Origin: Hyphomicrobiales bacterium
GTDB taxonomy: Bacteria > Pseudomonadota > Alphaproteobacteria > Rhizobiales > Xanthobacteraceae
Length of the DNA stretch: 64,000 nt
Reading direction: 5' to 3'
Assembly (NCBI GenBank): GCA_017305715.1
Contig: JAFKKG010000013.1
Coordinates: forward strand, 1-64,000
Under the pieces are notes generated by a model, which saw nothing but the letters and a program-made list of their open reading frames with translations, ran no database searches and had not been told where the DNA came from. Shown one piece after another: positions 32,094-47,127 of the stretch; the first letter of the stretch is position 1; each line of letters starts with the position of its first letter. A program made the position numbers and the translations under genes.

Positions 32094-33083
32094 CTATTTC
32101 GCCGGCGGCGCGGTAATCGCCTTGCGGATGGCGGCGAGCGGGGCGGTGTCGTCGAATGCGACGCTTTCGCCGTGCAGCTTCAGGCCGAGGTCGCGCCAGA
32201 GGACCGCGAGATCCGGCGTCACCGGCTTTGGCCCCATCTCGTCGTGAAGTTTTGTCAGCACGTCGACGCCGACGGCCTTGTCCGCCGTGGCGAGCACGCG
32301 ATCGATCGTCCAGTCCTTTTCGTGGTTGCCGCCGGCGGCGAGCACGCCGCGCATGGCGTCCTGCAAACCAAAGCGATTATCGGTGCGCTTGCGGATTTCG
32401 ATATCGGCGAGCAGGCAGAACATCGCGCCGCCCCAATATTTGCGGCCCCAGGTATCGGTGTTGTCGAGCCCCTGGTCGCCGGCCTGTGGCAGGCCCTTCG
32501 GCATGTCGCGCATCATCGCCTGCCAGATCTCCGGCGCGGTCAGGTCACCCGCCTGCACCCGCGCAATCGGCTCGATATAGACGGCGAGCCCTTCCGACAG
32601 CCATGCATGGCGGTCGCCCACGTCGGGCAGGGCGGTGTGCACCATCTCGTGCACCATCACCCAGTCGCGCCGCAACACGTCCTCGGTGGCGTCGCGGCCG
32701 ATCGGGATGCGAATGGCGGCGCCGCGATAGCCCCAGGTCGTGCCGCCGCGGATCCGCGTGCCGTCGACCGGCACCAGCAGCAGCCGCAGCTGTTCGACGG
32801 GAAACCGGCCGTAGTACGTCGCGACCGCCTTCGCCGACATCCGGACCCAGTCCAGCACCTTCTCCCGCGGCAAGGTCATCTCGCCCGGCGCGAAGCCGAC
32901 ATGGATGGTGCCGCCGCCTATCTCGAGATCGGTTTTGGGCAGCCGGCCGAACGCATCATAGGGCATGCGGTCGCCGCGCATATATTCCGACTGCGCATCG
33001 GCGCGGAACGCGACGAGGCTTGCCAGCATGGCTGTGGCGACGATGGCGGCGACGATCCAGTGGATATCCCTGAGGGTCTTCAT
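32094..33083 (-). CDS. Exported HExxH zinc metalloprotease, last gene of bufferin-type operon
   Basis: A 329-residue protein with an N-terminal signal or anchor segment (residues 8-25) ending near FRADAQS, so it acts in the periplasm. The zinc motif HEMVH (145-149) with downstream WLSEGLAVY (E164) matches gluzincin-type peptidases such as the M1/M61-like group. It is the sixth gene in a leftward run, and its ATG overlaps the creatininase-like stop in an ATGA junction. I infer a role linked to the bufferin peptides, for example leader removal or turnover. That role is not described in known bufferin systems to my knowledge. Confidence 0.8.
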   Translation of the reverse strand: MKTLRDIHWIVAAIVATAMLASLVAFRADAQSEYMRGDRMPYDAFGRLPKTDLEIGGGTIHVGFAPGEMTLPREKVLDWVRMSAKAVATYYGRFPVEQLRLLLVPVDGTRIRGGTTWGYRGAAIRIPIGRDATEDVLRRDWVMVHEMVHTALPDVGDRHAWLSEGLAVYIEPIARVQAGDLTAPEIWQAMMRDMPKGLPQAGDQGLDNTDTWGRKYWGGAMFCLLADIEIRKRTDNRFGLQDAMRGVLAAGGNHEKDWTIDRVLATADKAVGVDVLTKLHDEMGPKPVTPDLAVLWRDLGLKLHGESVAFDDTAPLAAIRKAITAPPAK

Positions 33084-33865
33084 CGCGACACGCTTCGGGC
33101 GTCGCCCGATCGCTGGTTCGCCTCGTCAGCGAGAAATGCCGCGACCTGTTCGCTGAGATCGCCGAGCATGGCGGCGAGCAGTATCTGGCCTTTTGCCGGT
33201 GTCGCCAGGGTCGGATCGCCATAACTGCCGGAGCGGCTGTAATTCGGCGAGGTCGTGTCCAGCGGCGTCAGGGCCCCGGGTGCCTCACGTCCAATCGCCG
33301 GGCTGGGTTCGGCTCTGTTCATGTCGACGAGATCAGGCGCCAGCGCCAGCATCAGCGAGGTTTCGAGTTCGTCGGCGTGGCTGCCATGGTTTTGCTCGGC
33401 CAGCCGTTCGGCGGCCTCGCGATAGCGCGGACCGTCATGGATGCGCAGATGCATGATGCGGCCCATATCGAGCCGCGCCAGTGCACGTTCGACCGGAGAC
33501 AGCGTGCTGATCCCGGTGTTGAGCACGAACAGCTTTCGGCAGCCATGGCCGAGAATGCCGGTCGCGATCTCCCGCACGACGGCTTCAAAGGTTGCGCTGG
33601 AAAGGCTGCTGCTGCCGGCATAGGCGACGAAGGCCGGATAATAACCGTAAGCCAGCGTCGGCCAGATCAGCGCGCCGAAGCGTGCGGCGAGCTGGCCCGC
33701 CAGCCACTCGGCCTGGATGCGATCGGTGTTGAGGGGCAGATGAAAGCCATGCTCCTTGGCGGCGGCGCCGATCGGCAATATCGCCGCTGCGCCATGGCTG
33801 ATGCGCCGCGCAACGTCGTCCCACGTCATGCGCTCGATGAAATGGCGTTCGGTGTCCGTGCCCAT
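33080..33865 (-). CDS. Creatininase-family hydrolase in bufferin-type operon
   Basis: A 261-residue cytoplasmic protein with creatininase fold signatures: ILPIGAAAKEHGFHLPLNTD (residues 29-48) containing the metal-binding E/H/D set, and GSHADELETSLML (161-173). The usual NGHGGN motif is replaced by NTGIST around 116-121, so one conserved histidine is missing. Family members include creatininase, riboflavin-pathway amidases and MftE, which trims the mycofactocin RiPP precursor. It starts 16 nt after bufC and overlaps the protease gene. A peptide-processing role by analogy to MftE is inference. ATG at 33865 is the first codon with family sequence. Confidence 0.8.
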   Translation of the reverse strand: MGTDTERHFIERMTWDDVARRISHGAAAILPIGAAAKEHGFHLPLNTDRIQAEWLAGQLAARFGALIWPTLAYGYYPAFVAYAGSSSLSSATFEAVVREIATGILGHGCRKLFVLNTGISTLSPVERALARLDMGRIMHLRIHDGPRYREAAERLAEQNHGSHADELETSLMLALAPDLVDMNRAEPSPAIGREAPGALTPLDTTSPNYSRSGSYGDPTLATPAKGQILLAAMLGDLSEQVAAFLADEANQRSGDARSVSR

Positions 33866-33881
33866 GGTGCGGGCCTTTTTG

Positions 33882-34661
33882 TCAGATGGAGACAGCCGCG
33901 AGGTTGCCCGATGTGATCCAGCCGTGCAGATAGCCGGCGCCGCGCGCTGCCGCGCCGTCGGGGTCGTCATAGGTCGCCAGCATTTCGCAGAGCACGCCGA
34001 ACGGGACGCCGTCAGCGGCCTCGTCCCACATCATCGCTTCTTCCGCGGAGAGTTCGCGGAACATCGGCGTGGTGTCCTGACGCCAGATGAGGATGCGCGG
34101 CGGCGCGTCGGGCGCGACCGCATCCGGCGGCGTCTCGTCGTTCTTGAGCGCCAGCCAGATCGCGGCGGCGTTGGTCGACAGATCGAGCCTGGCAGCGCTC
34201 GGATGCGGCCGGAATGTGAGATCGTTCCATTGCTCCGGCGCAAACCCCGCCATGGCGGTCAGTTCGAGCACCGGGCCTTCCGCGGCGTCGAAGGCGTCAT
34301 TGAGGCCTTTCTCCAGCGCGGCGAGATCGGCGAGTACCGGGTGGTTGCAATAGGGTTCGGTTGTCTTCAAGAACTCCGGCAGGCCCTGCGAGAACCAGCG
34401 CAGGTTCGGATGTTCCGAGGGGCGCGCCTTGACATAGGCGTGTCCCATCTCGTCGAACATCTCGTCGCCGAGATAGGCATGCAGCAATTCATGGTCGTTG
34501 CGCATGGCCTCGACCAGGCGCGAGCCGTAGGCGTAGCGGTAGACGCCGTACAGCGTCTCGCGCTTCTCGCGCGGGCTGTCGCGGATTTCGGCAAGCACGG
34601 TGTCGTCGCCGGTCAGGATGCCGCGCTGGAAATCCGCCTGCTGGCGTGCGAAGTCGCTCAT
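33882..34661 (-). CDS. bufC: DUF2063 / BufC-like partner of the DUF692 enzyme
   Basis: A 259-residue protein with the DUF2063 N-terminal domain (MSDFARQQADFQRGILTG, then LYGVYRYAYGSRLVEAMRND and AYLGDEMFDEMGHAYV), once annotated as putative DNA-binding. In bufferin and related DUF692 systems this partner (BufC, or MbnC-like) binds the enzyme and the precursor leader. The ATG overlaps the bufB stop in an ATGA junction, which supports translation coupling and equal amounts of the two proteins. Its function here is inferred from the pair. Confidence 0.82.
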   Translation of the reverse strand: MSDFARQQADFQRGILTGDDTVLAEIRDSPREKRETLYGVYRYAYGSRLVEAMRNDHELLHAYLGDEMFDEMGHAYVKARPSEHPNLRWFSQGLPEFLKTTEPYCNHPVLADLAALEKGLNDAFDAAEGPVLELTAMAGFAPEQWNDLTFRPHPSAARLDLSTNAAAIWLALKNDETPPDAVAPDAPPRILIWRQDTTPMFRELSAEEAMMWDEAADGVPFGVLCEMLATYDDPDGAAARGAGYLHGWITSGNLAAVSI

Positions 34662-35572
34662 CCCGCCTGCTTGCCGCGGTCATTGCCAGGTCTTGGCAAA
34701 ACCTTCTCGGCGATTTCGCGGGTGCGGTTGACTTCGAGCAGCAATTCGTCGAGCGGGGGGATGTTGTCGTCGCGCTCGATCATGGTCGAGACCCGGCCGA
34801 AGCGCTTGATGGCCGCGACGTAGAGATCCCAGACGTCTTCACAGACGGGGTGATCATGGGTGTCGATGATGTGGGTGCCCATGTGGCTGTGTCCGGCCAT
34901 GTGGAACTGCACGACACGATCCGCCGGAATTCCGTTGAGGAAAGTCATGGGATCGTAGCCGTGGTTGAAGGCGCTGACATAGACGTTGTTGATGTCGAAC
35001 AGCAGCCAGCAGCCGGAGCGGCGCGACAATTCGGAGAGAAATTCCCATTCCGTCATTTCGGAATTGTTGAACTGCACATAGGTCGAGACGTTTTCGAGCA
35101 CGATGGCGCGGCCGAGGAAATCCTGCACCAGTTGCACGCGGCCGACGACGTGGTCGAGCGCCTCTGAGGTGTAGGGGATCGGCAGCAGATCGTGCAAATT
35201 CTTGCCGTGCACGCCGGTCCAGCACAGATGGTCGGAGACCCATTTCGGCTCGACGCGCTTGGCGAGATCCTTCAGGCCTTGCAGATACTCGAAATTCGGC
35301 GGCGCGGTGGAGGCGATCGACAGCGATACGCCGTGCATCACGACCGGATAGCGTTCGCAAATCCGGTCGAGCACGCGCAGCGGCTGGCCGCCCGGCAGCA
35401 TGTAGTTCTCGCTGATCACTTCGAACCAGTCGATCGGCGGATTGCCACCCAGGATTTCGTCGTAGTGTTGCGCGCGCAGGCCGAGGCCGAAGCCGAGGAA
35501 CGGCGGCTTGTCCGATTGCGCCGGACGCTGGAGCGCGGCCGGGGAACTGGGCAATCTGCTTGCGACGTTCAT
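34658..35572 (-). CDS. bufB: DUF692 (MNIO) multinuclear iron oxygenase, BufB-like
   Basis: A 304-residue TIM-barrel enzyme. Likely iron ligands and conserved elements are VVMHGVSLSI (77-86), VSDHLCWTG (112-120), IVLENVS (157-163), LLFDINNVYVS (190-200), FHMAGHSH (223-230), DTHDHPV (237-243) and IERDDNIP (265-272). DUF692 enzymes oxidatively modify cysteines in ribosomal peptides. BufB of Caulobacter converts bufferin cysteines to thiooxazoles that bind copper, and MbnB makes methanobactin heterocycles. It follows the second precursor gene by 118 nt with a hairpin between, and overlaps bufC. Confidence 0.9.
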   Translation of the reverse strand: MNVASRLPSSPAALQRPAQSDKPPFLGFGLGLRAQHYDEILGGNPPIDWFEVISENYMLPGGQPLRVLDRICERYPVVMHGVSLSIASTAPPNFEYLQGLKDLAKRVEPKWVSDHLCWTGVHGKNLHDLLPIPYTSEALDHVVGRVQLVQDFLGRAIVLENVSTYVQFNNSEMTEWEFLSELSRRSGCWLLFDINNVYVSAFNHGYDPMTFLNGIPADRVVQFHMAGHSHMGTHIIDTHDHPVCEDVWDLYVAAIKRFGRVSTMIERDDNIPPLDELLLEVNRTREIAEKVLPRPGNDRGKQAG

Positions 35573-35649
35573 GTCGTCTCCGCTTCGCGCATCGCCGGCC
35601 CTGCAATGGATTTTGGCGATGGTATTGCCTCAGATTACCACGGAAGAGA

Positions 35650-35669
35650 GGCCCGGCCTACACCGGGCC
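35650..35669 (-). terminator. Hairpin between precursor and enzyme genes (attenuator or partial terminator)
   Basis: GGCCCGG (35650-35656) and CCGGGCC (35663-35669) form a perfect 7-bp stem with a 6-nt loop, 21 nt after the precursor stop. There is no U tract, so partial termination or 3'-end protection is more likely than full stop. A longer hairpin with the same core lies after the other precursor gene. Confidence 0.6.
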
Positions 35670-35690
35670 CCGCTCCGGATGGCCGCCGGC

Positions 35691-35948
35691 TTAGGCGGGG
35701 GTGAACTTGCCCTTGGCAGCGTCGCACTTTTCCTTGGTCATGGCGGAGAAGCCCTGACCCTTGCAGGCGTTCTGGCCCTTGCAGGCATTGGCGCTGCTCT
35801 TGCACGCGCTCTGGCCCTTGCAGGCGTTCACGCCGACGCAATGGCCTTCGCCCGCGGCGTAAGCAACGGTCGACATGGTCGCGCCAGCGAGGAACAGCGT
35901 GGCGGCAGCGGCGGCAATCGTGGCACCGGACTTGGAAGTCATCTTCAT
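35691..35948 (-). CDS. bufA: Bufferin-type RiPP precursor, copy 2 (six cysteines)
   Basis: An 85-residue precursor. A Sec signal peptide (SGATIAAAAATLFLAGATMS) ends near AYAAGEG. The mature part has six cysteines spaced C-x5-C-x5-C-x6-C-x5-C-x12-C, with the repeated NACKGQ motif. This is the shape of DUF692-modified periplasmic metallophores (BufA2-type). Modified cysteines would bind copper or another soft metal. It heads the bufB-bufC-creatininase-protease run and has its own ECF-like promoter at 36031-36055. The spacing of all six cysteines is identical to the paralogue at 36152-36415. Confidence 0.85.
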   Translation of the reverse strand: MKMTSKSGATIAAAAATLFLAGATMSTVAYAAGEGHCVGVNACKGQSACKSSANACKGQNACKGQGFSAMTKEKCDAAKGKFTPA

Positions 35949-36030
35949 GAGGGTCTCCTGTTGGAGGTTTTACGATGCACGACCCGCAAACCGTGGAATT
36001 CGGGACTGGCAGGCTGCACCCGGGGATAAT

Positions 36031-36055
36031 TACGCGGTGGGGTGGGCTTGGTTAC
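36031..36055 (-). promoter_or_regulatory. ECF-type promoter upstream of second precursor gene
   Basis: On the minus strand GTAACC (36055-36050) is followed by a 15-nt spacer and CGTA (36034-36031), 82 nt before the ATG at 35948. The -35 element equals that reported for the metal-stress sigma factor SigF of Caulobacter (GTAACC with CGAA, as I recall). An A/T-rich block lies just upstream (36064-36077). The same pair with a 16-nt spacer precedes the other precursor gene. Confidence 0.65.
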
Positions 36056-36097
36056 ACGGCCGGAAAAATTTATTTCGACAATCGGCCGTCCCGAAGT

Positions 36098-36139
36098 GAA
36101 ACGATGAGGCCCGGCATCGCTGCCGGGCCCTTTCGTTTC
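36098..36139 (-). terminator. Strong hairpin after first precursor gene
   Basis: GGCCCGGCA-TCGC-TGCCGGGCC (36108-36129) is a perfect 9-bp stem with a 4-nt loop. Flanking GAAACGA (36098-36104) and TCGTTTC (36133-36139) extend it with an internal loop. It starts 12 nt after the precursor stop and ends before the promoter of the next precursor gene, so it probably makes the first precursor a single-gene transcript. Confidence 0.7.
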
Positions 36140-36151
36140 AGTTCGAGACCA

Positions 36152-36415
36152 TCAACCCTTGACGAACTTCGCGCCCATGGCTTCGCAGGCCTTCGCGGAG
36201 GTCATCGAGAACCCGGTGCCCTTGCAGGCGTTCTGGCCCTTGCAGGAATTGCCCGCGCCCTTGCAGGCGCTCTGGCCCTTGCAGGCGTTGCCGGCCATGC
36301 ACTTGCCGGCCGCGGCGTTGGCAGAGGTCGACCCGGTCGACACGACCGCGCCGGCGAGGAACAGGGTGGCGGCGGCTGCTGCGAGCGTCGCACCGGATTT
36401 GGAATTCAACTTCAT
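36152..36415 (-). CDS. bufA: Bufferin-type RiPP precursor, copy 1 (six cysteines)
   Basis: An 87-residue precursor paralogous to 35691-35948. The signal peptide (SGATLAAAAATLFLAGAVVS) is followed by a mature part starting AAAGKC with cysteine spacing C-x5-C-x5-C-x6-C-x5-C-x12-C and motifs NACKGQSACKG and NACKGTGF. ATG at 36415 follows GAGGAGAAC; a longer in-frame start has no signal peptide directly after it. It has a separate ECF-like promoter at 36580-36605 and a strong hairpin at its end, so it can be expressed without the enzyme genes. The two precursors presumably feed one DUF692 enzyme. Confidence 0.85.
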   Translation of the reverse strand: MKLNSKSGATLAAAAATLFLAGAVVSTGSTSANAAAGKCMAGNACKGQSACKGAGNSCKGQNACKGTGFSMTSAKACEAMGAKFVKG

Positions 36416-36579
36416 GACGTTCTCCTCGGTGAGTGTTTGACGATTACGCCGTGAGCATCCGATGATCAGGGGATCATCGACCCGCACAACGCCAGGAAAG
36501 CAACGGATGCCAATCAGATCGCGGCGGCCTCGCGAAGGTCGTTACGCCTCCGCGATGTGAGTGCTCATCCGGAAACAGC

Positions 36580-36605
36580 TACGGGGCATCAGGCGATTTG
36601 GTTAC
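36580..36605 (-). promoter_or_regulatory. ECF-type promoter upstream of first precursor gene, with A/T-rich UP-like block
   Basis: On the minus strand GTAACC (36605-36600) is followed by a 16-nt spacer and CGTA (36583-36580). A perfect 16-bp palindrome AAAGAAAATTTTCTTT (36615-36630) within an A/T-rich block lies directly upstream, at the position of an UP element. The leader to the ATG at 36415 would be about 160 nt. The remaining stretch to 36802 has no gene. Matching elements at 36031-36055 strengthen the call. Confidence 0.65.
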
Positions 36606-36802
36606 AGGGTTTCGAAAGAAAATTTTCTTTTTTTGGAATTAGACAACCCCGTCCATCTTCAACCCCGGCACGCCGGGAGTATTTCGTTGCCGGGTGGGCG
36701 ACAATTGGAGCCCTTTGCGTGGGGAAATCGCAAAGGTTAGCTGAATTTGACCGGAGGTGGGTTCATTTCGCTGCATTGCACAACGAGCTTGGCGGGTGGC
36801 GT

Positions 36803-37120
36803 TCAAGAGATCCGCAAGGCCTGCTCATGTGCAATTGCCTGGTCCAGGGAGTTGAGCAGGTTCTGAACATCCGCAATATCCTGGGCACGCCCGAGGAATA
36901 CAACGGGATAGGTCATGGCATCCTGTGCCAGATAGCGACGTTTATCGATCAGCATCTGGCGCAACTTCAGCAGGTTCTCCAGCGGATCTCCGACCGTCGC
37001 CTCGCCAAAGTCATCGGTGGGTCGCGCGTAACCGGAGGTATCCGCCAACGTGTCGTACTGCTCGGGAGCCGGTGGCTTCTGGAACATGGATTGACCTTTC
37101 TGTGTGCTGAATGCCGTCAT
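36803..37120 (-). CDS. Small conserved-looking hypothetical protein at the end of the aromatic operon
   Basis: A 105-residue cytoplasmic protein without a signal peptide. It has a helical C-terminal half (DPLENLLKLRQMLIDKRRYL, later AQDIADVQNLLNSLDQAIAH). No family is recognised. Its ATG overlaps the monooxygenase stop in an ATGA junction, so it is translated with that gene. It may be a small accessory or stabilising protein for the hydroxylase. That is only a suggestion from context. Confidence 0.65.
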   Translation of the reverse strand: MTAFSTQKGQSMFQKPPAPEQYDTLADTSGYARPTDDFGEATVGDPLENLLKLRQMLIDKRRYLAQDAMTYPVVFLGRAQDIADVQNLLNSLDQAIAHEQALRIS

Positions 37121-38268
37121 ACGGCGTTGGAAAGCGGCGGGTTCAAAGCCGCGAAGTTCGGCATGTCGAACCGCATGTTGGGAATGTCGGCGCTCAGCAG
37201 GGGGCGAAGGGCCGGATCGCTGAAGAAGATATCGTTCCTGGGGTCGAGCCGCCCTTCGGTAATCCCTTCGGCAAACTTCTGGGTGAAATGGACCAGCGGC
37301 CGAATCTTGGTTTCCCAGGCCGTCAGTGCGTCCGATAGCGGACTGCTCAAGAGATCGGTCGCGCCTAGCGAATAGGCGGTCATCATCGCCGAGTTTGCCC
37401 CCTGACCCAGCGCCGGGGTCATCCCGTGCGCCGCGTCGCCAATCAGGACGCATTTGCCGAAATGCCAGGTGGGTGGAAAGATCGAATGGTATTCGTCGTA
37501 GTGACCTGCCGGGCCCACCCGGTCGATGAACCGCCCCAATGTCGGAAACGTAGCCTTCCAAAGCTCCGGATCGATCGGCATTTTCAATGCCTGGGGATCG
37601 GAGAGCAGCGCCACGAGGATCATGTACATTGTCTTCGACGAACATGGCAGAAGCCCGATCCGGCGTCCGCCCGGATCGTTGTACTCGGTCGCGACACGGT
37701 CATTCCCATCGGGAAAGTCGTCTGGACGGATCGGGATCAGCAAGCGGATCGCGCCCTTGCGATGCTTGCCGAGAGGGAGCGTGCCCGCAACCGATTTCCG
37801 GACGATCGAATGGATACCGTCGGCTCCGACGATAAGGTCGGACTCGAGTCGGCGCCCTCCGCTCAGATGCAGAATGCCGTCACGCTCGGCGCTGAGAACC
37901 CTGGAGCCCACCTCGATCTTCACGCCAGCCTTTACGGCAGCCTCCGCCAGCGGATCGACAAGTGCTTGCCGCTCGAACATCACAATCCGGCCACCGGTTG
38001 CCGCAAAGGGCTCGTACTCGGTCGTCGTCTGGCCAGAACTCAATCGAATGATCCATTTATTGAGCTGGTGTCCTCGCGTCCGTATGGCATCCTGGAGACC
38101 CAACGCTTCAAGGATACGCAATCCGTTCTCGAATATCGGAAGCCCGTTGCCGCCCGCCCTCAGGGCCTCGCTTCGCTCATGGAGTCTCACAGACCATCCG
38201 TTTCTGGCGAGCTGAATGCTTGCGACAAGGCCGGCGATGCCGCCTCCAACGATCTCCGCAGCCGGCAT
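37117..38268 (-). CDS. FAD-dependent aromatic-ring monooxygenase
   Basis: A 383-residue class A flavoprotein of the salicylate/6-hydroxynicotinate hydroxylase type. It shows EIVGGGIAGLVASIQLARNG (GxGxxG), VGADGIHSIVRKSV (DG motif) and VLIGDAAHGMTPALGQGANS (GD motif). The expected reaction is NAD(P)H-dependent hydroxylation, sometimes with decarboxylation, of an aromatic acid. The start ATG overlaps the cupin stop (TAATG). It lies in one transcription unit with a Liv-type transporter, so the transported compound is probably its substrate. Confidence 0.88.
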   Translation of the reverse strand: MPAAEIVGGGIAGLVASIQLARNGWSVRLHERSEALRAGGNGLPIFENGLRILEALGLQDAIRTRGHQLNKWIIRLSSGQTTTEYEPFAATGGRIVMFERQALVDPLAEAAVKAGVKIEVGSRVLSAERDGILHLSGGRRLESDLIVGADGIHSIVRKSVAGTLPLGKHRKGAIRLLIPIRPDDFPDGNDRVATEYNDPGGRRIGLLPCSSKTMYMILVALLSDPQALKMPIDPELWKATFPTLGRFIDRVGPAGHYDEYHSIFPPTWHFGKCVLIGDAAHGMTPALGQGANSAMMTAYSLGATDLLSSPLSDALTAWETKIRPLVHFTQKFAEGITEGRLDPRNDIFFSDPALRPLLSADIPNMRFDMPNFAALNPPLSNAV

Positions 38269-38786
38269 TACTGCTTTCCTCCCAGGGCATCGTGCCAAAT
38301 TTGCGGTAGTGGACCGAACGAGCCTTCCAACGGATCGCATACGGGGACCGGCACGCGCCGAGAGCGTTCAACCATCCGCGCGTATTCCTCGACATACCCA
38401 AGTCTGAAATCGTGAATCGCATGGCCCATCGGGAATGCGCCGGTCAGGCGCAAGTCTTCCGTAATTGACTCTCCGAAGTGTCCCACTCCCGCCGGAATCA
38501 CGACGAAATCGCCCTTCGTCATCGTCACACGCACGCCCTCCGGGCCGCCGAAGCGCCCAACCAGGGTACCGCGCGTAACCGCGATCAATTCGTGGGTATC
38601 GCTGTGGAAGTGGTAGCGTGGATACATGCCGAAGGAACTGTGCCAATCCGTCGGCCACTCGTTCCTTCGAAACACGTCCTCCAGTTCCAGGGGCCGCATG
38701 TCGAAAGCCGCCCGGTAGATCAGAACCGGAAGCCGTGAATTCGGAATGCGTCCGTTGCCCTTCAGGACGTGAGTTTCGATGTTCAT
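38268..38786 (-). CDS. Cupin-domain protein
   Basis: A 172-residue beta-barrel protein with the two cupin motifs: PRYHFHSDTHELIAVTRGTL (metal-binding H-x-H-x3-E region) and GDFVVIPAGVGHFG with the second His. Cupins near hydroxylases often act as dioxygenases, isomerases or small regulators. GGGAGAA precedes ATG 38786. The stop overlaps the monooxygenase start by one base. A ring-cleaving or decarboxylating role in the same pathway is possible but not shown. Confidence 0.82.
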   Translation of the reverse strand: MNIETHVLKGNGRIPNSRLPVLIYRAAFDMRPLELEDVFRRNEWPTDWHSSFGMYPRYHFHSDTHELIAVTRGTLVGRFGGPEGVRVTMTKGDFVVIPAGVGHFGESITEDLRLTGAFPMGHAIHDFRLGYVEEYARMVERSRRVPVPVCDPLEGSFGPLPQIWHDALGGKQ

Positions 38787-38893
38787 TGATGCGTTTCTCC
38801 CAAACATGTGCGTGTGGTCGAGCGAATTTGCCACGTGTCTGACCGGCGATCCCGGTTCCGACGGGACGTCAAAAGTGGTCGACCTTGCCTATT

Positions 38894-39568
38894 TCAACCC
38901 GGATTCCGTATCGTCAATCCGTCGAGAAAGATGTCGATACCATCCGCGTAAACCTGCTCGATCGTCCGCTCGTAGATCGTCGTCCGGCCGGCGATGGCGA
39001 GGTACGCGTTACCCATCCATTGCCCCCACAGAGAAAGCGTGGCCGCGCGCGCGTCTATCGACCGCGCCTCTCCGCGCGCAATTCCCAACTTGATCGCTTC
39101 CTCGATCGCCAGGATGCCGTCATTGAGTCTTGTGCTGATCTTGGCAGCAGCATCGGGCGGCAACGTTTCCTTGCGCCCGGGCATGAAGAAGAACGACAGC
39201 GTCGTGAAGTACTCGGTATGAACGCGGAAGAAGTTCATATAGGAGATCGACATTCGATACAGATTGTTGCGAACCGAGTCGTTCCTGTCGAACGATGTGG
39301 TGAGCATCGTGATCATCGCGTCAAGGTCGCGAAACAGGAGTTCGGTGTATACTTCCTGCTTGCTCTTGAAATACAGATAGATGGTCGCCCTCGATATGCC
39401 CGCGGTATCGGCGATGTCATCGATCGTCACCGACGCATAGTCGCCGGCGAGAAAGATCTGCTTTGCTGCGTCGAGAATTTCGGCGCGTCGACGCACAATT
39501 CGCTTCGTGCGACGCCGCTCTTTTGCCGCGACTGGATCGCGCTTATCGTCAGATTCCAAGGTAGGCAC
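38894..39568 (-). CDS. TetR-family transcriptional regulator
   Basis: A 224-residue regulator. The N-terminal helix-turn-helix (ILDAAKQIFLAGDYASVTID, then TAGISRATIYLYFKSKQEVY) is typical, and the C-terminal ligand domain includes NFFRVHTEYFTTLSFFF. It starts inside the end of livF (20-nt overlap), so it is expressed with the transporter and can feed back on it. The AAATTAGAC inverted repeat at 44379-44442, upstream of the first transporter gene, is the best candidate operator. The likely ligand is the transported aromatic or its CoA ester. Confidence 0.87.
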   Translation of the reverse strand: MPTLESDDKRDPVAAKERRRTKRIVRRRAEILDAAKQIFLAGDYASVTIDDIADTAGISRATIYLYFKSKQEVYTELLFRDLDAMITMLTTSFDRNDSVRNNLYRMSISYMNFFRVHTEYFTTLSFFFMPGRKETLPPDAAAKISTRLNDGILAIEEAIKLGIARGEARSIDARAATLSLWGQWMGNAYLAIAGRTTIYERTIEQVYADGIDIFLDGLTIRNPG

Positions 39569-40253
39569 GTCTCAATCCATCATCCTGCAGAAGGGTGGCG
39601 CCGAGGCCCTGCATGGTACCCCGTCCGCTTTCCAGCACATAAGCGTAGTCAGCCGTCTCGAGCACGTGCACGACCTGCTGTTCGATAATCAAGATCGGAA
39701 CTCCCTGATCCCGGATAGTCTTCACCAGTCTGAATACTTCTTCGACCAGCATCGGTGCCAAGCCAAGCGTTGGTTCGTCCAACATCAACAGCCGAGGGCA
39801 CGACATCAGCCCGCGCCCGATGGCGCACATCTGCTGCTCTCCACCGGACAGGGTACCAGCCAGTTGGTTGCGGCGCTCCGCCAGGCGTGGCAGGAGATCG
39901 AAGATGAACTCCAGCTGTTGCTTCCGCTTGCCGCGGGCTGCCTTTCCGTACGCTCCGATCTCCAGATTTTCCAGAACGCTCATGAACGGAAACAGGCGGC
40001 GGCCCTCCGGCACATGGATCAGTCCCTGCTCAACAATCTGATGAGGAGCCAGCCGCGAGATGTCCTTGCCATCGAGCTCGATACTCCCGCTGCGGTTCCT
40101 GACGAGCGCCGATATCGCGGACAATGTCGTGGTCTTGCCTGCGCCATTGCTGCCGACCAGCCCGACGATCTGACCTGCCGCCACGTCGAACGAAAGCTGT
40201 TCGACGGCTTGCACGTCGCCGAAGCGTACACTGAGATCACGGACCCGCAGCAT
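39549..40253 (-). CDS. livF: Liv-type ABC transporter ATP-binding protein LivF
   Basis: A 234-residue ATPase of high-affinity branched-chain/aromatic-acid importers. Walker A is LVGSNGAGKTTTL, the signature is TLSGGEQQMCAIGRGLM, and Walker B is LLMLDEPTLGLAPMLVEEVF. LivF and LivG act as a pair on the LivHM channel. It follows livG by 3 nt and overlaps the TetR gene. Comparable sets in Rhodopseudomonas carry benzoate or coumarate derivatives. Confidence 0.92.
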   Translation of the reverse strand: MLRVRDLSVRFGDVQAVEQLSFDVAAGQIVGLVGSNGAGKTTTLSAISALVRNRSGSIELDGKDISRLAPHQIVEQGLIHVPEGRRLFPFMSVLENLEIGAYGKAARGKRKQQLEFIFDLLPRLAERRNQLAGTLSGGEQQMCAIGRGLMSCPRLLMLDEPTLGLAPMLVEEVFRLVKTIRDQGVPILIIEQQVVHVLETADYAYVLESGRGTMQGLGATLLQDDGLRRAYLGI

Positions 40254-40256
40254 CGC

Positions 40257-40988
40257 CTAGCTCCCCGACAGCGCAAAGTTGGCGCCCAGATATGCCGACA
40301 GCACAACTGGATCGCGGGTGACTTCCGCAGGAGCCCCGTTGGCGATCGGCTCCCCGTTTTGAAGGACCAGAATGTGGTCTGACAGTTGCATCACGGCGTT
40401 CATGTGATGCTCGATCACCACCAGGGCTATTCCCCGCTCTCTCAGTCGTCGAATGAAATCGATCATTCTTTTGACTTCAATCGGGATCAACCCGCCCATG
40501 ACTTCATCAAGCAGCAGTGCGCGAGGGGACGTCGCGAGTACTTTGGCCATCTCCAGCCGCTTGCGGTCGCCGATCGGCAACTGTCCAGCGGGCACATCGC
40601 ATAGGGCCGACATGTCAAGATCGCTCAACACCTGGCGGGCGATCTCACGTGCCATTTCGATCGATCGGGCACGGAGCATTGCTCCCATCACGACGTTATC
40701 AAGCACGCTCAGGCCGCGAAACGGCTGCACGATCTGAAACGTGCGGGCGAGGCCGGCGCGGCACCTGCTTTCGGGAGACATGCCTCGAAAATCCTGGTTA
40801 TCGAGGGATACCGAGCCTCCGTCCGGCCTGACAAATCCTGTCAACAGGTTGAAGACCGTGGTCTTGCCCGCCCCGTTTGGGCCGATGATCGAAAGAATTT
40901 CGCCAGGGCGTGCGATGAAGCTTACGTTCTTGACCGCCGTCAAGCCGCCGAAGCGCTTCGTCAAACCCGTCGCCGTCAGGACAGCCAC
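40257..40988 (-). CDS. livG: Liv-type ABC transporter ATP-binding protein LivG
   Basis: A 243-residue ATPase with Walker A IIGPNGAGKTTVF, the LivG-specific ARTFQIVQPFRGLSVLDNVV segment and Walker B LLLDEVMGGLIPIEV. The usual LSGGxQ signature is reduced to LPIGDRKRLEMAKVL, a variant seen in some LivG-like proteins. The start is taken as GTG 40988, which overlaps the livM end by 13 nt and gives normal length. It works with LivF, LivH and LivM. Confidence 0.88.
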   Translation of the reverse strand: MAVLTATGLTKRFGGLTAVKNVSFIARPGEILSIIGPNGAGKTTVFNLLTGFVRPDGGSVSLDNQDFRGMSPESRCRAGLARTFQIVQPFRGLSVLDNVVMGAMLRARSIEMAREIARQVLSDLDMSALCDVPAGQLPIGDRKRLEMAKVLATSPRALLLDEVMGGLIPIEVKRMIDFIRRLRERGIALVVIEHHMNAVMQLSDHILVLQNGEPIANGAPAEVTRDPVVLSAYLGANFALSGS

Positions 40989-41956
40989 GTCATCCTCCGT
41001 TTCAAGAATGCATGTGCCGAGGGTCCAAGTCCCGTCGGGGCGACAAGCAAAACCAGGATCACGATGGCTGCATAGGCGAGTTGCGTCAGACCCGAGATTT
41101 GATCGCCAAGATACGCTTGCATGACGACGGAGACGACCGAAACCAGGAGGGCGCCGACGATCGGGCCGTACGCCGTGCCGAGCCCGCCAACGATCGCCAT
41201 CAGCGCAAAATTGAGCGACAGGTTCAGGCCCATCACGCTGTCCGGGTCGACATACAGATAATATTGGGCATGCACGGTTCCGCAGATGCTGATGAGACCC
41301 GCGGAAAGCGCGAACACCCCTATGCGAAGCGGCAACGTGCGGATTCCGAGTGCGCGTGCAGCGTCGTGGTTCTCTCTGAATGCGACCAGCGCATAGCCGA
41401 TCTTGCTTGCGGCGATCATGCGCGTAATTGCGTAGAAGACGATGACGAGAACGAGGGCGACGTAAGTGTAGATCAGCTTCTTGGCGAAGATCAGATTTTC
41501 GGGACTCGGCCGAAGCGGGATTGCCAATCCCGATGGCCCGCCGGTGAGATCCCGCAGGTTGATGGCGCTGATGTGAACGACGGCGCCGAAGGCGAGGGTC
41601 GACATGACGAAGAACGAGCCCTTCAGCCGCATGGTGATGGCACCCAGGAAGACGGCAAGAGCCGCACTGACGATCGCGCCGAGCCACATTCCTATCAGCG
41701 GACTAATCCCGGCTTTCAGGAACAGGATCGTCGAGACATAGGCGCCAAGGCCGTAGAAGGCGGCGTGACCGAGCGATAGCTGACCCGCGTATCCTCCGCT
41801 CAGGTTCCAGGCCAGGGATGCGGCGGCACCCAGAAATGCCAGTGTGACTGCCGCCACGAAGAACGCATCAGAAAAGATCAGGGGTAAGGCCGCCAAGACC
41901 GCAAACCCGGCAACGGGCAGCAGCAGTCCAGTGAGCGGAGAGCGAACTGGCTTCAT
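40976..41956 (-). CDS. livM: Liv-type ABC transporter permease LivM
   Basis: A 326-residue permease with about nine membrane segments. Family motifs are AWNLSGGYAGQLSLGHAAFY and SKIGYALVAFRENHDAARAL, the cytoplasmic coupling region. ATG 41956 overlaps the livH stop (TGATG); GTG 41959 is an alternative one codon earlier. With LivH it forms the channel of the importer. Confidence 0.92.
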   Translation of the reverse strand: MKPVRSPLTGLLLPVAGFAVLAALPLIFSDAFFVAAVTLAFLGAAASLAWNLSGGYAGQLSLGHAAFYGLGAYVSTILFLKAGISPLIGMWLGAIVSAALAVFLGAITMRLKGSFFVMSTLAFGAVVHISAINLRDLTGGPSGLAIPLRPSPENLIFAKKLIYTYVALVLVIVFYAITRMIAASKIGYALVAFRENHDAARALGIRTLPLRIGVFALSAGLISICGTVHAQYYLYVDPDSVMGLNLSLNFALMAIVGGLGTAYGPIVGALLVSVVSVVMQAYLGDQISGLTQLAYAAIVILVLLVAPTGLGPSAHAFLKRRMTWLS

Positions 41957-42840
41957 CACGTGACATCCATGACTTCGGCACCCTTGCGACCAAACAGACC
42001 ATTGGGGCGCACGGCGAGGACGATCATGAAGAGGACGAAGTAGACGAGCTGCTTCAACTCTCCGCCGGCAAGGTATCCGGTGAAGGATTCCACCACGCCG
42101 ATCAGAAGGCCCGCCGTCACCGCACCAGCGATGCTTCCCATCCCGCCGAGAACGACGATGACAAACGAAACGAGGATCATATCGGCGCCGGTATAGGGAT
42201 TTACGGAAAACAGCGGCGACAGGAGAATGCCAGCCGCCCCAACCAGGGCGCAGCCGAGGGCAAACGTGACCGCGTAGACACGGTCGACATTGATGCCGAC
42301 CAGCCGCGCTGAACGACGGTCTTGCGCGGTGGCGCGTATCGCGCTCCCCATGTAGGTATATTTGAGGAAAGCGGCCAATCCGCCGGCGAACGCCAGCGCA
42401 ACAACGAAAACGGCTGCGCGTAACCAGGACACGTAAAGCGGGCCGATCTGGAACGCGGCCGTGGCATAGGGCGTCCTGACGGAGCGAAAATCGGACGTGA
42501 AGAGCGCCAGCAAGAGGTTCTGTAGAAACAACGACAGAGCGAAGGTGACGAACACCTGGACCACATGAGGGGCCTCGAGCGTCGGTCGGATCAGCAGACG
42601 CTCGGTCGCGAGTCCAAGGACGAACATCAGCGGCACGACGGCGATGCTGGCGACGAAGGGATCAATTCCGACGCGCTGAAACATGAAGTATGTCAAGTAC
42701 ATCGCTATCGTGAGGTATTCGCCATGCGCAAAGTTCACGACGCGCAAGACGCCGAAGACCAGCGTCAAGCCGACGCTGATCAACGCGTACACCCCGCCGA
42801 TGAACAGGCCCGACAGGGCAAGCTGAATGTAAATGTCCAT
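41956..42840 (-). CDS. livH: Liv-type ABC transporter permease LivH
   Basis: A 294-residue permease with eight or so hydrophobic segments. It opens LALSGLFIGGVYALISVGLT and carries NFAHGEYLTIAMY and GSAIRATAQDRRSARLVGIN, both strong LivH signatures. It lies 33 nt downstream of the binding-protein gene and overlaps livM. It forms half of the transport channel. Confidence 0.93.
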   Translation of the reverse strand: MDIYIQLALSGLFIGGVYALISVGLTLVFGVLRVVNFAHGEYLTIAMYLTYFMFQRVGIDPFVASIAVVPLMFVLGLATERLLIRPTLEAPHVVQVFVTFALSLFLQNLLLALFTSDFRSVRTPYATAAFQIGPLYVSWLRAAVFVVALAFAGGLAAFLKYTYMGSAIRATAQDRRSARLVGINVDRVYAVTFALGCALVGAAGILLSPLFSVNPYTGADMILVSFVIVVLGGMGSIAGAVTAGLLIGVVESFTGYLAGGELKQLVYFVLFMIVLAVRPNGLFGRKGAEVMDVT

Positions 42841-42873
42841 AACGGCCCCTGGATCGTCGGCACTAACGGGGCG

Positions 42874-44136
42874 TCACCGCGCATTCCGGGCGGGCAGCGG
42901 CACCATGATGGGATCGTGGACCTTGTTGGCTGCCGGATAGACCGATATCATCTTCTGATCCTGCCACTGAACAACGCTGCCGAACGCCCGCCGATTTTGG
43001 CCCTTGTCGTCGAACTTCAAACCCCAGCCATTGATGTACGAGCCGACCGGCACGTCGACCTTGAGCGAGGCTTCGCGAAGATCCGACGCGCTATCGGACG
43101 TCGCGTTGCCCAGAATGTCCCGCGCGAGCGCGATGCCCACTACGAATCCGAGCGACTCCTGTACGGCAGGCGCGACCTTGTACTTCGCTTCGTAACGTTT
43201 CAGGAATGCCTCGCGATCCGCACGCGCTTCGGCCGATAGAGAGTTCAAATTGGCGTCGAGTGGAAACGACGATGAGAAGATGCCGTTTACATCCTTCCCG
43301 ATCGCTTCGGCCAGCGATAGCGTGGAGTGACCCGCGCTGGTGCCTACGAACGCCTTCGGGCTGTAGTTCATTTCCTTCATCTGGCGCTGGAAAAGGATAG
43401 CGTCATTGATGAACTGCGTGGCGATGATCATGTCCGGGTCAAGCGAACGCAGCTTCAGGACCAGCGGAGACAGATCGGTGGTCTTGGCAGAATAAAGCTC
43501 GCGCAATCCGATCTTGATCCCGAGTTTTTCGGCCTGGGCGATGACGGCCCTCGACACGTCGACGCCAAATGCCGAATCTTCCGCAACGACCGCAACCTTC
43601 AGGTTTTTCGAATCGATCTTCAGCATCGGCGCAAGGACTTCGGCGGCATATAACGGAGCCGGCTCGCCGAGGCCCGCTGCGCTCAGTCCCATGCGAAATA
43701 CGTTTTTGAAGTCGCGTTCGGTATAGTTGTTCGCAACCGCCATACCTTCCCAGTAAAACGCACCATTGCGCTCCGCTTCCTGGCTCGCCACCATGCCAAC
43801 GGCGCTCGTCGAACTCCCGACGAAGATGCGCACGCCTTCGCGCGAGGCGAGACGGTTGGTTTCGCTGATGGCTGCCTGCGGGCTATTCCCGTCGCCCTTG
43901 AAGAGCTGGATTTTTCGTCCCTTGACGCCACCGCGATCATTCACCAGTTCGATCGCCGTCTCGACGCCTTGAAAATTCTGGTTGCCAAATACGGAATTGC
44001 CGCCGGTCAGCGGAAAGATGCCGCCAACCTTGATCGGCTCTTGCGCGAGCGCCGATCGGGACGAGAAAACGGCCGGTACCGCCGCGAGGAGACCGAGGAC
44101 CTCTCGGCGTGCAAGACGACGCTTAGACTGAGACAT
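42874..44136 (-). CDS. Liv-type ABC transporter substrate-binding protein
   Basis: A 420-residue periplasmic binding protein. A leader with RRLARREVLGLLAAVPAVFS (possibly Tat) precedes IKVGGIFPLTGGNSVFGNQN, the family start. The ligand-binding lobes include VRIFVGSSTSAVGMVASQEA. It is the first gene of the leftward unit that ends at 36803. Given the hydroxylase and cupin genes in the same unit, an aromatic acid is the most likely ligand, although amino acids or amides are also possible for this family. Confidence 0.9.
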   Translation of the reverse strand: MSQSKRRLARREVLGLLAAVPAVFSSRSALAQEPIKVGGIFPLTGGNSVFGNQNFQGVETAIELVNDRGGVKGRKIQLFKGDGNSPQAAISETNRLASREGVRIFVGSSTSAVGMVASQEAERNGAFYWEGMAVANNYTERDFKNVFRMGLSAAGLGEPAPLYAAEVLAPMLKIDSKNLKVAVVAEDSAFGVDVSRAVIAQAEKLGIKIGLRELYSAKTTDLSPLVLKLRSLDPDMIIATQFINDAILFQRQMKEMNYSPKAFVGTSAGHSTLSLAEAIGKDVNGIFSSSFPLDANLNSLSAEARADREAFLKRYEAKYKVAPAVQESLGFVVGIALARDILGNATSDSASDLREASLKVDVPVGSYINGWGLKFDDKGQNRRAFGSVVQWQDQKMISVYPAANKVHDPIMVPLPARNAR

Positions 44137-44378
44137 GCTTTACCCCCTGTGAAGCCGCAAGAATTCAACTGCAACGACGTGGCGACGTCAGATCGACGCG
44201 CGCGTTCTGCCCCAATGGTGGGCCGGCAGGATGCGGAAGACGCGCCTGTCGAGCGACCATCGCTTTCCCGAACAATCGACGGTCGCCTGACCGGGAGCCT
44301 CTGATCGGCATGCCTGGCAGCCGAACGAGTGGCCGTGCGCACAACGCATGTTCCCGAAACAGCACGCCACCTCATCCA

Positions 44379-44442
44379 TAAATTATACGATAATGAAATT
44401 ATAGACCATAAATTAGACAAGTAAAGTGTAATCGTCTAATTT
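44379..44442. promoter_or_regulatory. A/T-rich operator region with AAATTAGAC inverted repeat and half-sites
   Basis: AAATTAGAC (44410-44418) and GTCTAATTT (44434-44442) form a perfect 9-bp inverted repeat with a 15-nt centre. Related half-sites AAATTATAC (44381-44389) and AAATTATAGAC (44396-44406) lie next to it in direct orientation. The block is about 240 nt upstream of the binding-protein start and is much richer in A/T than the surroundings. It is a good candidate site for the TetR regulator of this unit. Confidence 0.6.
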
Positions 44443-44712
44443 TATACGCGAGGCGAATTGCTGAAACCTCCCGCCGTCCGGCGCGCGACCGGAACCCCGG
44501 CGGCCACCGTGCTGAGCGGGCTGCTCGAAGCCGGTCTTGCCCCGATAGGCGTCGCTGCCGTTGGAAATGGAAATGAGAATCCCTGGGATTGAGCCGTACT
44601 GACCTGATCAAACGCCGCGATGGCACGATTGGGCTGTTGCCTCTGGCGCAGGAACACGAAGCCGCGGAACGGGCCAGGGGACGGCACGCCGCGTTTGGAG
44701 AGAGTCCGCTTT
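44443..44712. other. Intergenic stretch with possible decayed coding sequence
   Basis: A plus-strand frame from about 44460 to 44590 reads like the C-terminus of a lost protein (LSGLLEAGLAPIGVAAVGNG, ending NENPWD and a stop), but no start is present and I cannot name its family. A second short frame follows. Neither is supported as a gene. The rest of the gap (44137-44378) shows nothing I can assign. Confidence 0.35.
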
Positions 44713-46506
44713 CTAATTCAGCGACGCCCGCGCCGGCTTCAGCTTCGCCATCTGCTTCACCGTGGCCTGCAGTTCCTCGGCGTTGAAGGAGGGGAATGAG
44801 CAGATGCGGTTGCTGCAGGCGAAGGCTGCGGGCTCGCCGAGGTCAGGGTATTCGACATCGGGGTTGGGCAATTTGCCCTCGCGCGGGTCGAGCCACTCGA
44901 GGCGCTTGTAGCGGGCGGGTAGCGCGCGGGCCAAGGCGTGCAAGGCCTGCGCGCCGGGCGCATCCTTGTGGCCGACGATGGTGATATGGGTCGGCTCGAT
45001 CGCGAGTTCTTCGTCGGCCAGCAGCACGCCGGGCAGCGGACGCATCATCCCGGCGGAGGCGCTGGAGAGATAGCGCATCGCGTGTGACGCCTGTTCGCGA
45101 TAGGCCTCATCGCCATAGTAGCGATTGAGCAGATTCATGAAGCGCGCGACCTGCACCTGATCGTCGATCAATTTTGCGGGCTTTGCCAATACGCCGGTTT
45201 TGCCTTCCGACATTTTCGAGGTCACGAAGCCGCCGGCCTCGTCGCGAAAGGTCGTGGCGAAATCGCCGGCCCTGGCGGCGGAAGTGAGCCATTCGCGGTT
45301 GCCGGTCGCGGCGTAGAGGTCGAGGAAGGCCTGGCCCATTGCCAGCGTGTCGCCGAGGAAGGGACCGCCGCGATCCTTCTCGCCATGGCGGAAGCCGCCG
45401 TTCGGCAGCGCGCGGTTATCCCTGACCCATTTCGCGGCGCGTTCGGCAATCGCGAGCACCTTGGGATCGTTGGTGACGTTGTAATACGCCGCCATTCCCG
45501 AGATCGCCCAGCCGTTCTCGCGCGCGTACAGGTTCTTGTCGATGCGCGGCATGCCGAGCTTGCGGCGTTCGGCATCGCCGAGCGCGTAATATTCGTGCCC
45601 GTCGGTGTCGTGGTTCAGATCGGCATCCTGGCTGACATAGAACGCGCCGTCGGGGCTGGAGAGAAAGTCCGCGAGGTAGCGCTCGATATTGCCGGCAGCA
45701 GCCAGGTATTTCGGGTCCTTCCACAGCGCATAGGCCTGGCTGTACTGCCGCAGATATTGCGCCTGGAACGACATGATCTTTTCGAAATGGACTTTGGTCC
45801 AGGAGCCGCCCTCGGAATATTGAAACACGCCGCCCCACACCGGGTCGATCAGCGCGATCGCGGCGTCCAGCGTCTGGCGGGCGCGCAGAATAGCGGTGGC
45901 ATCGCCGGCCTCGGCGCGGCCGATCGCCAGATCCATGCTGTCGGCGTCGATGAATTTCTGGTTCTCGCCCCAGCCGCCGAGCATTTCCTCATAGGATTCG
46001 TCCACATTCCTGGCCAGTTCGGTGCGCTGCTGCTTGCTGAGGAAGACCGAAGTGGATGGCTTGACCTCGAAGGCCTCGCCCACCGACGGCCCCGGCGTGG
46101 GATCGTCGATGATGGCCTTGAGCAGGGCCTGCATCCGCTCCGGTTCGATATATCCCCTGATCTTGGCGATCTCGGTACCGTCGGGGCCGAACACGATGGT
46201 GGCCGGCCAGCCCCAGTCGCCGTAACGGCTCGACAGATCCGGGTTGGCGTCCTGGTCGACGCGGACCGGCAGGTATTTCGAAGCGAGCAATTCCTTGACC
46301 TGCGGATCGGCGTAGGTCGTCTTTTCCATCACGTGGCACCAATGGCACCACACCGCCTCAAGATCGAGGATGACGAAGCGGTTTTCGGCCGCGGCGCGGG
46401 TGAAAAGATCGTCGCCCCATTCGCTCCATTTGACACCATCAGATGCGCGGGCCGAACCAGCCGCGAGCGCGGCAAGGATGATGGCGGCAATGCGGACGAG
46501 TTTCAT
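44713..46506 (-). CDS. Exported DUF255 thioredoxin-fold protein (YyaL/SSP411 family)
   Basis: A 597-residue protein with a Sec signal peptide (MKLVRIAAIILAALAAGSAR). The N-terminal DUF255 thioredoxin domain has the redox motif VWCHWCHVME (CxxC). The long C-terminal part is an (alpha/alpha)6-barrel of the glycosidase-like fold (GVFQYSEGGSWTKVHFEKIM, later RHGEKDRGGPFLGDTLAMGQ). Most family members are cytosolic and longer, near 680 residues. An exported, shorter form is less usual. DoxX and CcdA genes follow upstream on the same strand, which suggests reducing power for the CxxC comes through CcdA. No enzyme activity is assigned. Confidence 0.85.
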   Translation of the reverse strand: MKLVRIAAIILAALAAGSARASDGVKWSEWGDDLFTRAAAENRFVILDLEAVWCHWCHVMEKTTYADPQVKELLASKYLPVRVDQDANPDLSSRYGDWGWPATIVFGPDGTEIAKIRGYIEPERMQALLKAIIDDPTPGPSVGEAFEVKPSTSVFLSKQQRTELARNVDESYEEMLGGWGENQKFIDADSMDLAIGRAEAGDATAILRARQTLDAAIALIDPVWGGVFQYSEGGSWTKVHFEKIMSFQAQYLRQYSQAYALWKDPKYLAAAGNIERYLADFLSSPDGAFYVSQDADLNHDTDGHEYYALGDAERRKLGMPRIDKNLYARENGWAISGMAAYYNVTNDPKVLAIAERAAKWVRDNRALPNGGFRHGEKDRGGPFLGDTLAMGQAFLDLYAATGNREWLTSAARAGDFATTFRDEAGGFVTSKMSEGKTGVLAKPAKLIDDQVQVARFMNLLNRYYGDEAYREQASHAMRYLSSASAGMMRPLPGVLLADEELAIEPTHITIVGHKDAPGAQALHALARALPARYKRLEWLDPREGKLPNPDVEYPDLGEPAAFACSNRICSFPSFNAEELQATVKQMAKLKPARASLN

Positions 46507-46604
46507 GGCGGCTCCCGGAGCGCTGATATCTGCCAGCTACGCGTGCGCGCCCATCCGGGCTCAGACTTATCCGCGATGTCACGGCATTGTGAGACAGCGG
46601 GATT

Positions 46605-46637
46605 CGTCATGGCCCGGCACAAGGGCCGGGCATGACG
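46605..46637. repeat. REP-like palindrome (CGTCATG-CCCGG class)
   Basis: CGTCATGg-CCCGGC and GCCGGG-CATGACG form a long stem with one bulged base around ACAAGG. It lies between the DUF255 and DoxX genes. The same core starts the element at 22173. Such palindromes are typical intergenic repeats of this bacterial group and can also stabilise mRNA ends. Confidence 0.75.
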
Positions 46638-46662
46638 AGCTAGATGTTTTTCGGTTAGACGC

Positions 46663-47127
46663 TCAGGTCGATGCGTCGGGGCGACCCGAGGCGTTAACCA
46701 GCAGCCGATCGACGGAGGCCGCGCCGGGACCGGCGATCGCGAGCCACATGAAGGCGCCGAAATAGGCCATCTCTTCGAAGCCAAGCAGCGTTTCCAGCGA
46801 GTCGACGTCGCCCCATTTGGCCGACTTGATCGCGACCAGCATGACGACCGCCAGCATGGCGGCCGGGATACGGGTGAACAGGCCGAGGATCAGCATGGCG
46901 CCGCCGAAACACTCGACACCGGACACGAAGGGGGTGAGGATTTTTGGAAACGGAATGCCCCAGCCGATGAAATTCTGGGTGACCTGTTCCAGCGCGTTGA
47001 GTTTACCCCAGCCGGCCAGCATGAAGGTGTAGCCGACGACGAGCCGCATGATCAGTGGGCCAGCCCAGGCGAAGTATGATGCAATCTGCGCGGGCAACAG
47101 AATCAGAAGATTGACGATTGAAGTCAT
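46663..47127 (-). CDS. DoxX-family membrane protein
   Basis: A 154-residue protein with four hydrophobic segments. The signature GPLIMRLVVGYTFMLAGWGK, the central PFVSGVECFGGAMLILGLFT and RIPAAMLAVVMLVAIKSAK match DoxX. Family members take part in redox-related membrane complexes, for example quinone/thiosulfate oxidation or protection against oxidative stress. ATG 47127 gives normal length. It lies between DUF255 and CcdA genes on one strand. Confidence 0.85.
   Translation of the reverse strand: MTSIVNLLILLPAQIASYFAWAGPLIMRLVVGYTFMLAGWGKLNALEQVTQNFIGWGIPFPKILTPFVSGVECFGGAMLILGLFTRIPAAMLAVVMLVAIKSAKWGDVDSLETLLGFEEMAYFGAFMWLAIAGPGAASVDRLLVNASGRPDAST

Follow-up and report, generated by a model that had tools for sequence, protein, structure and literature searches.

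Does a bacterium that makes a copper-binding bufferin also encode dedicated means to cut this peptide and to keep it reduced? The question is raised by a locus on a 64,000-nucleotide stretch of Hyphomicrobiales DNA (assembly GCA_017305715.1, contig JAFKKG010000013.1, positions 1 to 64,000; hereafter the window), in which two bufferin precursor genes and the genes for their MNIO maturase and its DUF2063 partner run directly into genes for a creatininase-fold protein and a putatively exported HExxH protein. Comparisons across a genus sample (98 genomes), a family sample (248 genomes), and a class sample (289 genomes) confirmed that this two-gene extension is a real, conserved part of Buf2 bufferin loci. 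On this basis, we propose a Buf2-type copper-bufferin locus that would carry a dedicated extracytoplasmic redox and proteolysis arm, a reading to which we give roughly an even chance of being correct.

Results

The bufferin operon and its extension

The window belongs to a 7.45 Mb genome with Bradyrhizobium as its nearest named relatives. All genes of the operon lie on the minus strand, and their transcription order from head to tail is bufA2a, bufA2b, bufB, bufC, creatininase-fold gene, and HExxH gene. Both precursors contain six cysteines and a signal peptide (signal peptides were assigned by eye throughout, without a predictor) and passed the NF050166 cut-off of 60 bits: bufA2a (36152..36415, P0006, 87 amino acids) with 73.5 bits and bufA2b (35691..35948, P0005, 85 amino acids) with 90.3 bits. 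The MNIO (DUF692) maturase gene bufB (34658..35572, P0004) reached 382 bits with NCBIfam model NF050167 (cut-off 310) and is the sole match to PF05114 in the whole genome, and the gene for the DUF2063 partner, bufC (33882..34661, P0003), reached 63.1 bits with PF09836 (cut-off 27.2). BufA2 family membership, six-cysteine precursors, a BufB-type MNIO, a DUF2063 neighbor, and a DoxX gene, which count among the features of a Buf2-type cluster, were all found. The bufferin-type operon recognized in the preliminary description of this DNA is correct, and its type is Buf2.

An ATGA overlap joins bufB and bufC. The 16-nt gap between bufC and the creatininase-fold gene (33080..33865) and the ATGA overlap of the latter with the HExxH gene (32094..33083) are exactly as first described. 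Promoter scans gave 1 match (1.5 expected from shuffles) and terminator scans 4 matches (5.2 expected from shuffles).

Conservation in genus and family

BufB scored above its cut-off in 68 of the 98 genus genomes and matched in 69; the HExxH gene was present in 26 and a close creatininase (E <1e-100) in 24. All 26 HExxH carriers of the genus have bufferin genes beside the HExxH gene. BufB is located on the HExxH contig in 25 of them, and the remaining genome (G033) has instead an adjoining BufC at a contig end. No HExxH gene was found in the 29 genus genomes without BufB. The creatininase-fold gene is dispensable, as a close creatininase is missing in three of the 26 HExxH carriers (G012, G020, and G042). 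In a further genome (G035), creatininase, BufC, and BufB are present, and the contig ends at the expected position of HExxH. Within the family sample, a strong HExxH match was obtained in 11 of 248 genomes, with BufB close by in all 11, and some BufB occurs in 91; a single weak HExxH match (G168) was dropped.

The named HExxH loci are the best 80 of 98. BufC lies within the stretch in 53 of these 80, and creatininase in 42 of those 53. A bufferin match is absent in 25, the sequence of L105 ends at HExxH, and L093, with BufB- and BufC-like matches 8 kb off, was left out of the linked count. In most bufferin-linked loci the HExxH gene follows bufC, with or without an intervening creatininase gene, and DUF255 recurs with both. 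Of 41 creatininase/HExxH junctions, 32 read ATGA and five others GTGA or TTGA, as called by a script that chose the start codon nearest to such an overlap.

Some loci show peculiarities. HExxH matches are split in L081, L083, and L096, and the L091 creatininase contains an in-frame stop, which may reflect decay or assembly errors. Genome G113 possesses a second HExxH copy (L107) without a neighboring bufferin match, besides its bufferin-linked copy (L044). Plasmid records gave no HExxH protein match at E 1e-5.

Co-occurrence across the class and bufferin type

The class sample was searched at author-chosen E-value limits of 1e-30 and 1e-8. HExxH and creatininase occur together in 11 of the 289 genomes, representing nine families, as opposed to 0.9 expected. 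The two genes lie within ~4 kb of each other in eight of the 11 and on separate contigs in three. In two genomes (G727 and G783) a DUF255 gene stands between them and BufA2-BufB-BufC is adjacent, and in G909 the bufferin genes adjoin the creatininase/HExxH pair. This last locus (L218) has two MNIO/DUF2063 pairs, one of them with BufA2. The counts in the genus and in the class go beyond chance.

BufB was above the cut-off in 15 of 15 HExxH class genomes (the window included), compared to 67 of a set of 195 class genomes, which was treated, by genome handles, as a subset of the 289. Within this set, HExxH was found in 11 of 67 genomes with BufB and in none of 128 without. Buf2-type bufferins, defined by a BufA2 match and a BufB >50% identical, were assigned to 13 of the 15 HExxH genomes, each typed by its best BufB, compared to two of 20 controls (L298 and L309), of which the best BufB alone was typed; these controls are the top of the score list of the 56 BufB genomes without HExxH. 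The control count becomes four of 20 if L308 and L311 (BufB 53–54%, no BufA2 match) are regarded as Buf2. In G802, G808, and G914, DUF255 is at or near the Buf2 genes and HExxH elsewhere.

For comparison, 29 BufB loci without HExxH were hand-picked, five from the family and 24 from the genus, the latter drawn from G261, G075, and 21 of the 43 genus BufB genomes that lack HExxH. No BufA2, creatininase, or HExxH match was detected in these stretches, and their BufB proteins are 37–45% identical to the window BufB. CcdA or DoxX matched weakly in a few of them, and DUF255 (28%) weakly in L268. The four of their precursors that were scanned are DUF2282, Buf1 type. In the part of the genus covered here, the extension accompanies the Buf2 type.

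A possible link of the extension to the mature N-terminus, which is Ala/Gly-rich in HExxH-linked BufA2, was set aside, the contrast with unlinked BufA2 being confounded by clade.

The HExxH protein

The HExxH protein (P0002) comprises 329 amino acids with one cysteine and a signal peptide, and displays the motifs HEMVH and WLSEG. The HExxH motif and the downstream glutamate in the WxxEG segment, which we take to have a functional role in gluzincins, are invariant in 42 of 42 homolog rows. At E 0.001, P0002 matched nothing in Pfam or NCBIfam; the M61 family PF05299 matched weakly in eight of the 42 homologs (best E 0.0064) and not in P0002, and a PDB sequence search with the HExxH profile returned nothing convincing. 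Its predicted fold is M61/M1-like, and by this prediction the protein is classified as an M61/M1-like gluzincin. Of the exported HEMVH protease postulated initially, the signal peptide and a protease-like predicted fold hold.

Alpha-ketoglutarate HExxH hydroxylases acting on ribosomally synthesized and post-translationally modified peptides (RiPPs), which are cited in a landscape paper (PMC12452194), were considered for P0002 as well. The signal peptide and the M61/M1 fold argue against this assignment. P0002 had no NCBIfam match to such a hydroxylase, the presence of a corresponding model in the library being unchecked.

In five loci from Gammaproteobacteria or unclassified Proteobacteria metagenome-assembled genomes (L102, L103, L104, L112, and L118), the HExxH gene is convergent with a CopD-like gene. 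In five others (L106, L108, L116, L122, and L123), an MsrB-like (SelR) gene is near HExxH and co-directional.

The creatininase-fold protein

P0001, which has no signal peptide, reached 166.7 bits with PF02633 (cut-off 31.3). It stayed below the cut-offs of the creatininase equivalog TIGR04448 (98 bits, cut-off 235) and the MftE equivalog TIGR03964 (78.1 bits, cut-off 172). Canonical creatininases bind a dinuclear metal center through Glu-x-His, Asp, and NGHxE, and P0001 lacks this full set. In an alignment with Pseudomonas creatininase, the first residue of EQHG, a Glu, is replaced by Lys37, and of the NGHYEN segment only NTG is left, with NTGIST in place of NGHxE; the replaced Glu and the NGHxE residues are presumably the metal ligands of the canonical enzyme. 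The early assignment as a creatininase-family hydrolase stands for the family and is not justified for the hydrolase.

The exchange defines a K/NTG subfamily. The Lys is fixed and the NGHxE His and Glu are missing in two sets of 15 and 18 rows, which possibly overlap. The class search yielded 17 further members with Lys in the first motif of 15 of the 16 that cover it (Arg in one) and without the His of the second motif in 17 of 17. Six other creatininases of the genus retain canonical EQHG and GH. In a rapidly built tree that joins the window to 51 linked loci, creatininase presence needs five changes, interpreted here as one gain and four losses; the loci were chosen by HExxH presence, and HExxH losses are invisible in that sample.

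Five K/NTG homologs (L212, L216, L219, L220, and L222) are located near peptide-type ABC transporter genes, with no HExxH in the stretch.

Redox genes and the intervening block

Upstream of the operon, on the same strand, three further genes follow: a CcdA/DsbD-type transmembrane protein (47276..48007, P0008; PF02683 58.5 bits, cut-off 27.1), DoxX (46663..47127; PF07681 74.3 bits, cut-off 23.6), and a DUF255/Thioredox_DsbH protein with a CxxC motif and a signal peptide (44713..46506, P0007; PF03190 82.6 bits, cut-off 27). All three, the thioredoxin-like DUF255 gene included, are part of the locus. Among the 44 linked loci whose sequence extends 5 kb or more beyond bufB on its upstream side, the CcdA/DsbD-type gene was found in 42, DoxX in 40, DUF255 in 39, and creatininase in 34, a few of these matches being weak. 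The window proteins are 90% (CcdA/DsbD-type) and 84% (DoxX) identical to those of L087, and the DUF255 protein is 80% identical to the one encoded near bufA in L087. The interval 32094–36605 originally assigned to the locus covers the core operon and misses these partners at 44713–48007.

A block of ~7.9 kb (36786..44712) separates the upstream genes from bufA. By blastn, the relative L100 has ~220 bp between flanks matching those of the block, and in five further relatives the match to it does not exceed 162 bp. The 200-bp edges of the block have no common direct word of nine or more bases, and no tRNA was found within the window. FAD monooxygenase-like, cupin-like, TetR-like, and ABC transporter-like open reading frames were assigned in the block by eye.

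Discussion

The genetic association of the redox and proteolysis genes with the bufferin genes is well supported. For their function, the following sequence of events is conceivable. BufB and BufC would modify cysteines of the two BufA2 precursors in the cytoplasm, the modified peptides would be exported by Sec, and the bufferins would bind copper in the periplasm, as known from bufferin biology (in part from PMC12452194). Electrons from the CcdA/DsbD-type protein would reach the exported thioredoxin-like DUF255 protein and enable it to keep the bufferin thiols, or copper, reduced. The M61/M1-like gluzincin would cut the exported bufferin by trimming or, more likely, by degradation of peptide that is misfolded, oxidized, or loaded with copper, which would allow turnover of the copper buffer. 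The creatininase-fold protein, translationally coupled and dispensable, would be a helper in the cytoplasm; with its rewired active site it would either carry out a modified amide reaction on the peptide or on fragments of it, or bind without catalysis. Putative bufferin proteolysis by the HExxH protein is the step to which the proposal commits itself. The gene content in Bradyrhizobium and some related bacteria suggests that the cell may cut or recycle its copper-binding peptide by a dedicated route. A more specific and more tentative version, which we consider somewhat short of an even prospect, is a protease-equipped class of bufferins, in which an M61-like periplasmic peptidase coupled with a creatininase-fold protein of rebuilt active site, and a CcdA-fed thioredoxin-like protein, would mature or recycle copper-bound thiooxazole peptides. 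Such a class would amount to the earliest known case of proteolysis dedicated to bufferins and would offer a means of releasing copper again.

Several observations weigh against a dedicated arm. The co-occurrence tests ignore kinship among genomes, and the controls were the highest-ranked entries of a score list. No Buf2 gene was found in the DNA seen of the HExxH genomes G781 and G941 (E 1e-11), and HExxH was not seen near BufB in 10 of the 15 HExxH class genomes, some of them drafts. Genes beyond precursor, MNIO, DUF2063, and DoxX occur in extremely low proportions in bufferin clusters according to PMC12452194, and the arm is therefore not general. The creatininase-fold protein is devoid of the canonical ligands, and its subfamily also occurs near peptide ABC transporters without HExxH. 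Finally, the 25 named HExxH loci without a bufferin match in the stretch (44–58% identity; from Gammaproteobacteria, Acidobacteriota, Hyphomicrobiales, and others) include the five near a CopD-like gene (three Pfam-confirmed; CopC and a multicopper oxidase each confirmed in one) and the five near an MsrB-like gene (three Pfam-confirmed). Such neighbors tie the HExxH family to copper or oxidative stress, and therefore its substrate may differ from bufferin. They fit a periplasmic protease of general function, in quality control or stress, that handles proteins damaged by copper or oxidation and would accompany bufferins via copper stress and not act on them, and the M61/M1-like predicted fold agrees with such a role. 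Yet HExxH tracks Buf2-type genomes in the class sample (13 of 15 against two of 20) and sits within the bufferin gene row in Bradyrhizobium; we regard a general protease as rather unlikely.

The creatininase/HExxH pair could alternatively constitute a small-molecule or peptide catabolic unit of amidohydrolase and aminopeptidase that is carried in the operon and unrelated to bufferin. Alphaproteobacterial subfamily members near peptide-type ABC transporter genes, or near an amidase-like gene assigned by eye, point in this direction, but HExxH is absent from the transporter stretches and, in most linked loci, lies after bufC whether or not creatininase intervenes, and DUF255 recurs with both, which renders a catabolic unit improbable. 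The preliminary description had suggested trimming of the precursor before export by an active, MftE-like creatininase. Membership in PF02633 and the cleavage of a RiPP precursor by the creatininase homolog MftE (PMC10885120) agree with this idea. It is weak, and in our judgment very improbable, because the canonical metal site is missing, with Lys for Glu and loss of NGHxE in all aligned orthologs, because the MftE score is low, and because the gene is missing in three of the 26 HExxH genus genomes, five changes on the tree being interpreted as a single gain with four losses. A chance neighborhood, or hitchhiking in one lineage, would suit the fact that one genus supplies most linked loci; it is contradicted by the co-occurrence counts, by the nine class-sample families that have both extra genes, and by the occurrence of the pair in other gene orders, and is hardly credible.

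A conserved protease-like gene in Buf2 loci poses the question whether bufferin traps copper one way or serves as a buffer that proteolysis can empty. The locus also singles out a creatininase subfamily whose active site is altered.

Comparison with known systems

The preliminary description knew of no bufferin system with both extra genes, and none was found in the searched main texts of the open PubMed Central (PMC) literature. The words creatininase, thioredoxin, CcdA, DsbD, and DUF255 are not present in the main text of PMC12452194. Main texts of the open PMC literature yielded no paper that joins MNIO and thioredoxin, and among the matches listed, bufferin or MNIO was never joined with M61 or creatininase. 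Within these searches, the HExxH/creatininase/redox extension of Buf2 loci is undescribed.

Proteases and creatininase homologs are known from other RiPP loci. MfuP is an M61 metalloprotease of a Myxococcus fulvus lanthipeptide cluster (PMC10885120), and PDB entry 7xyo is an M61 peptidase of Myxococcus fulvus. P0002 differs from MfuP in that it has 329 amino acids and no Pfam M61 match of its own, and the RiPP class is different. MftE of mycofactocin synthesis (same source) is likewise a creatininase-family protein in a RiPP locus, but the window protein scores far under the MftE cut-off, its metal site is altered, and the RiPP is another one. The adjamnio-III HExxH proteins described in PMC12452194 are likewise encoded beside an MNIO gene; they contain three to four cysteines and precede MNIO/nitroreductase genes, whereas P0002 has a single cysteine and follows BufC. 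With the Buf2 clusters of the same paper, the window shares the precursor, MNIO, DUF2063, and DoxX genes and the six-cysteine precursors; to these it adds the predicted M61/M1-like gluzincin, the creatininase-fold protein, and the DUF255 and CcdA/DsbD-type genes.

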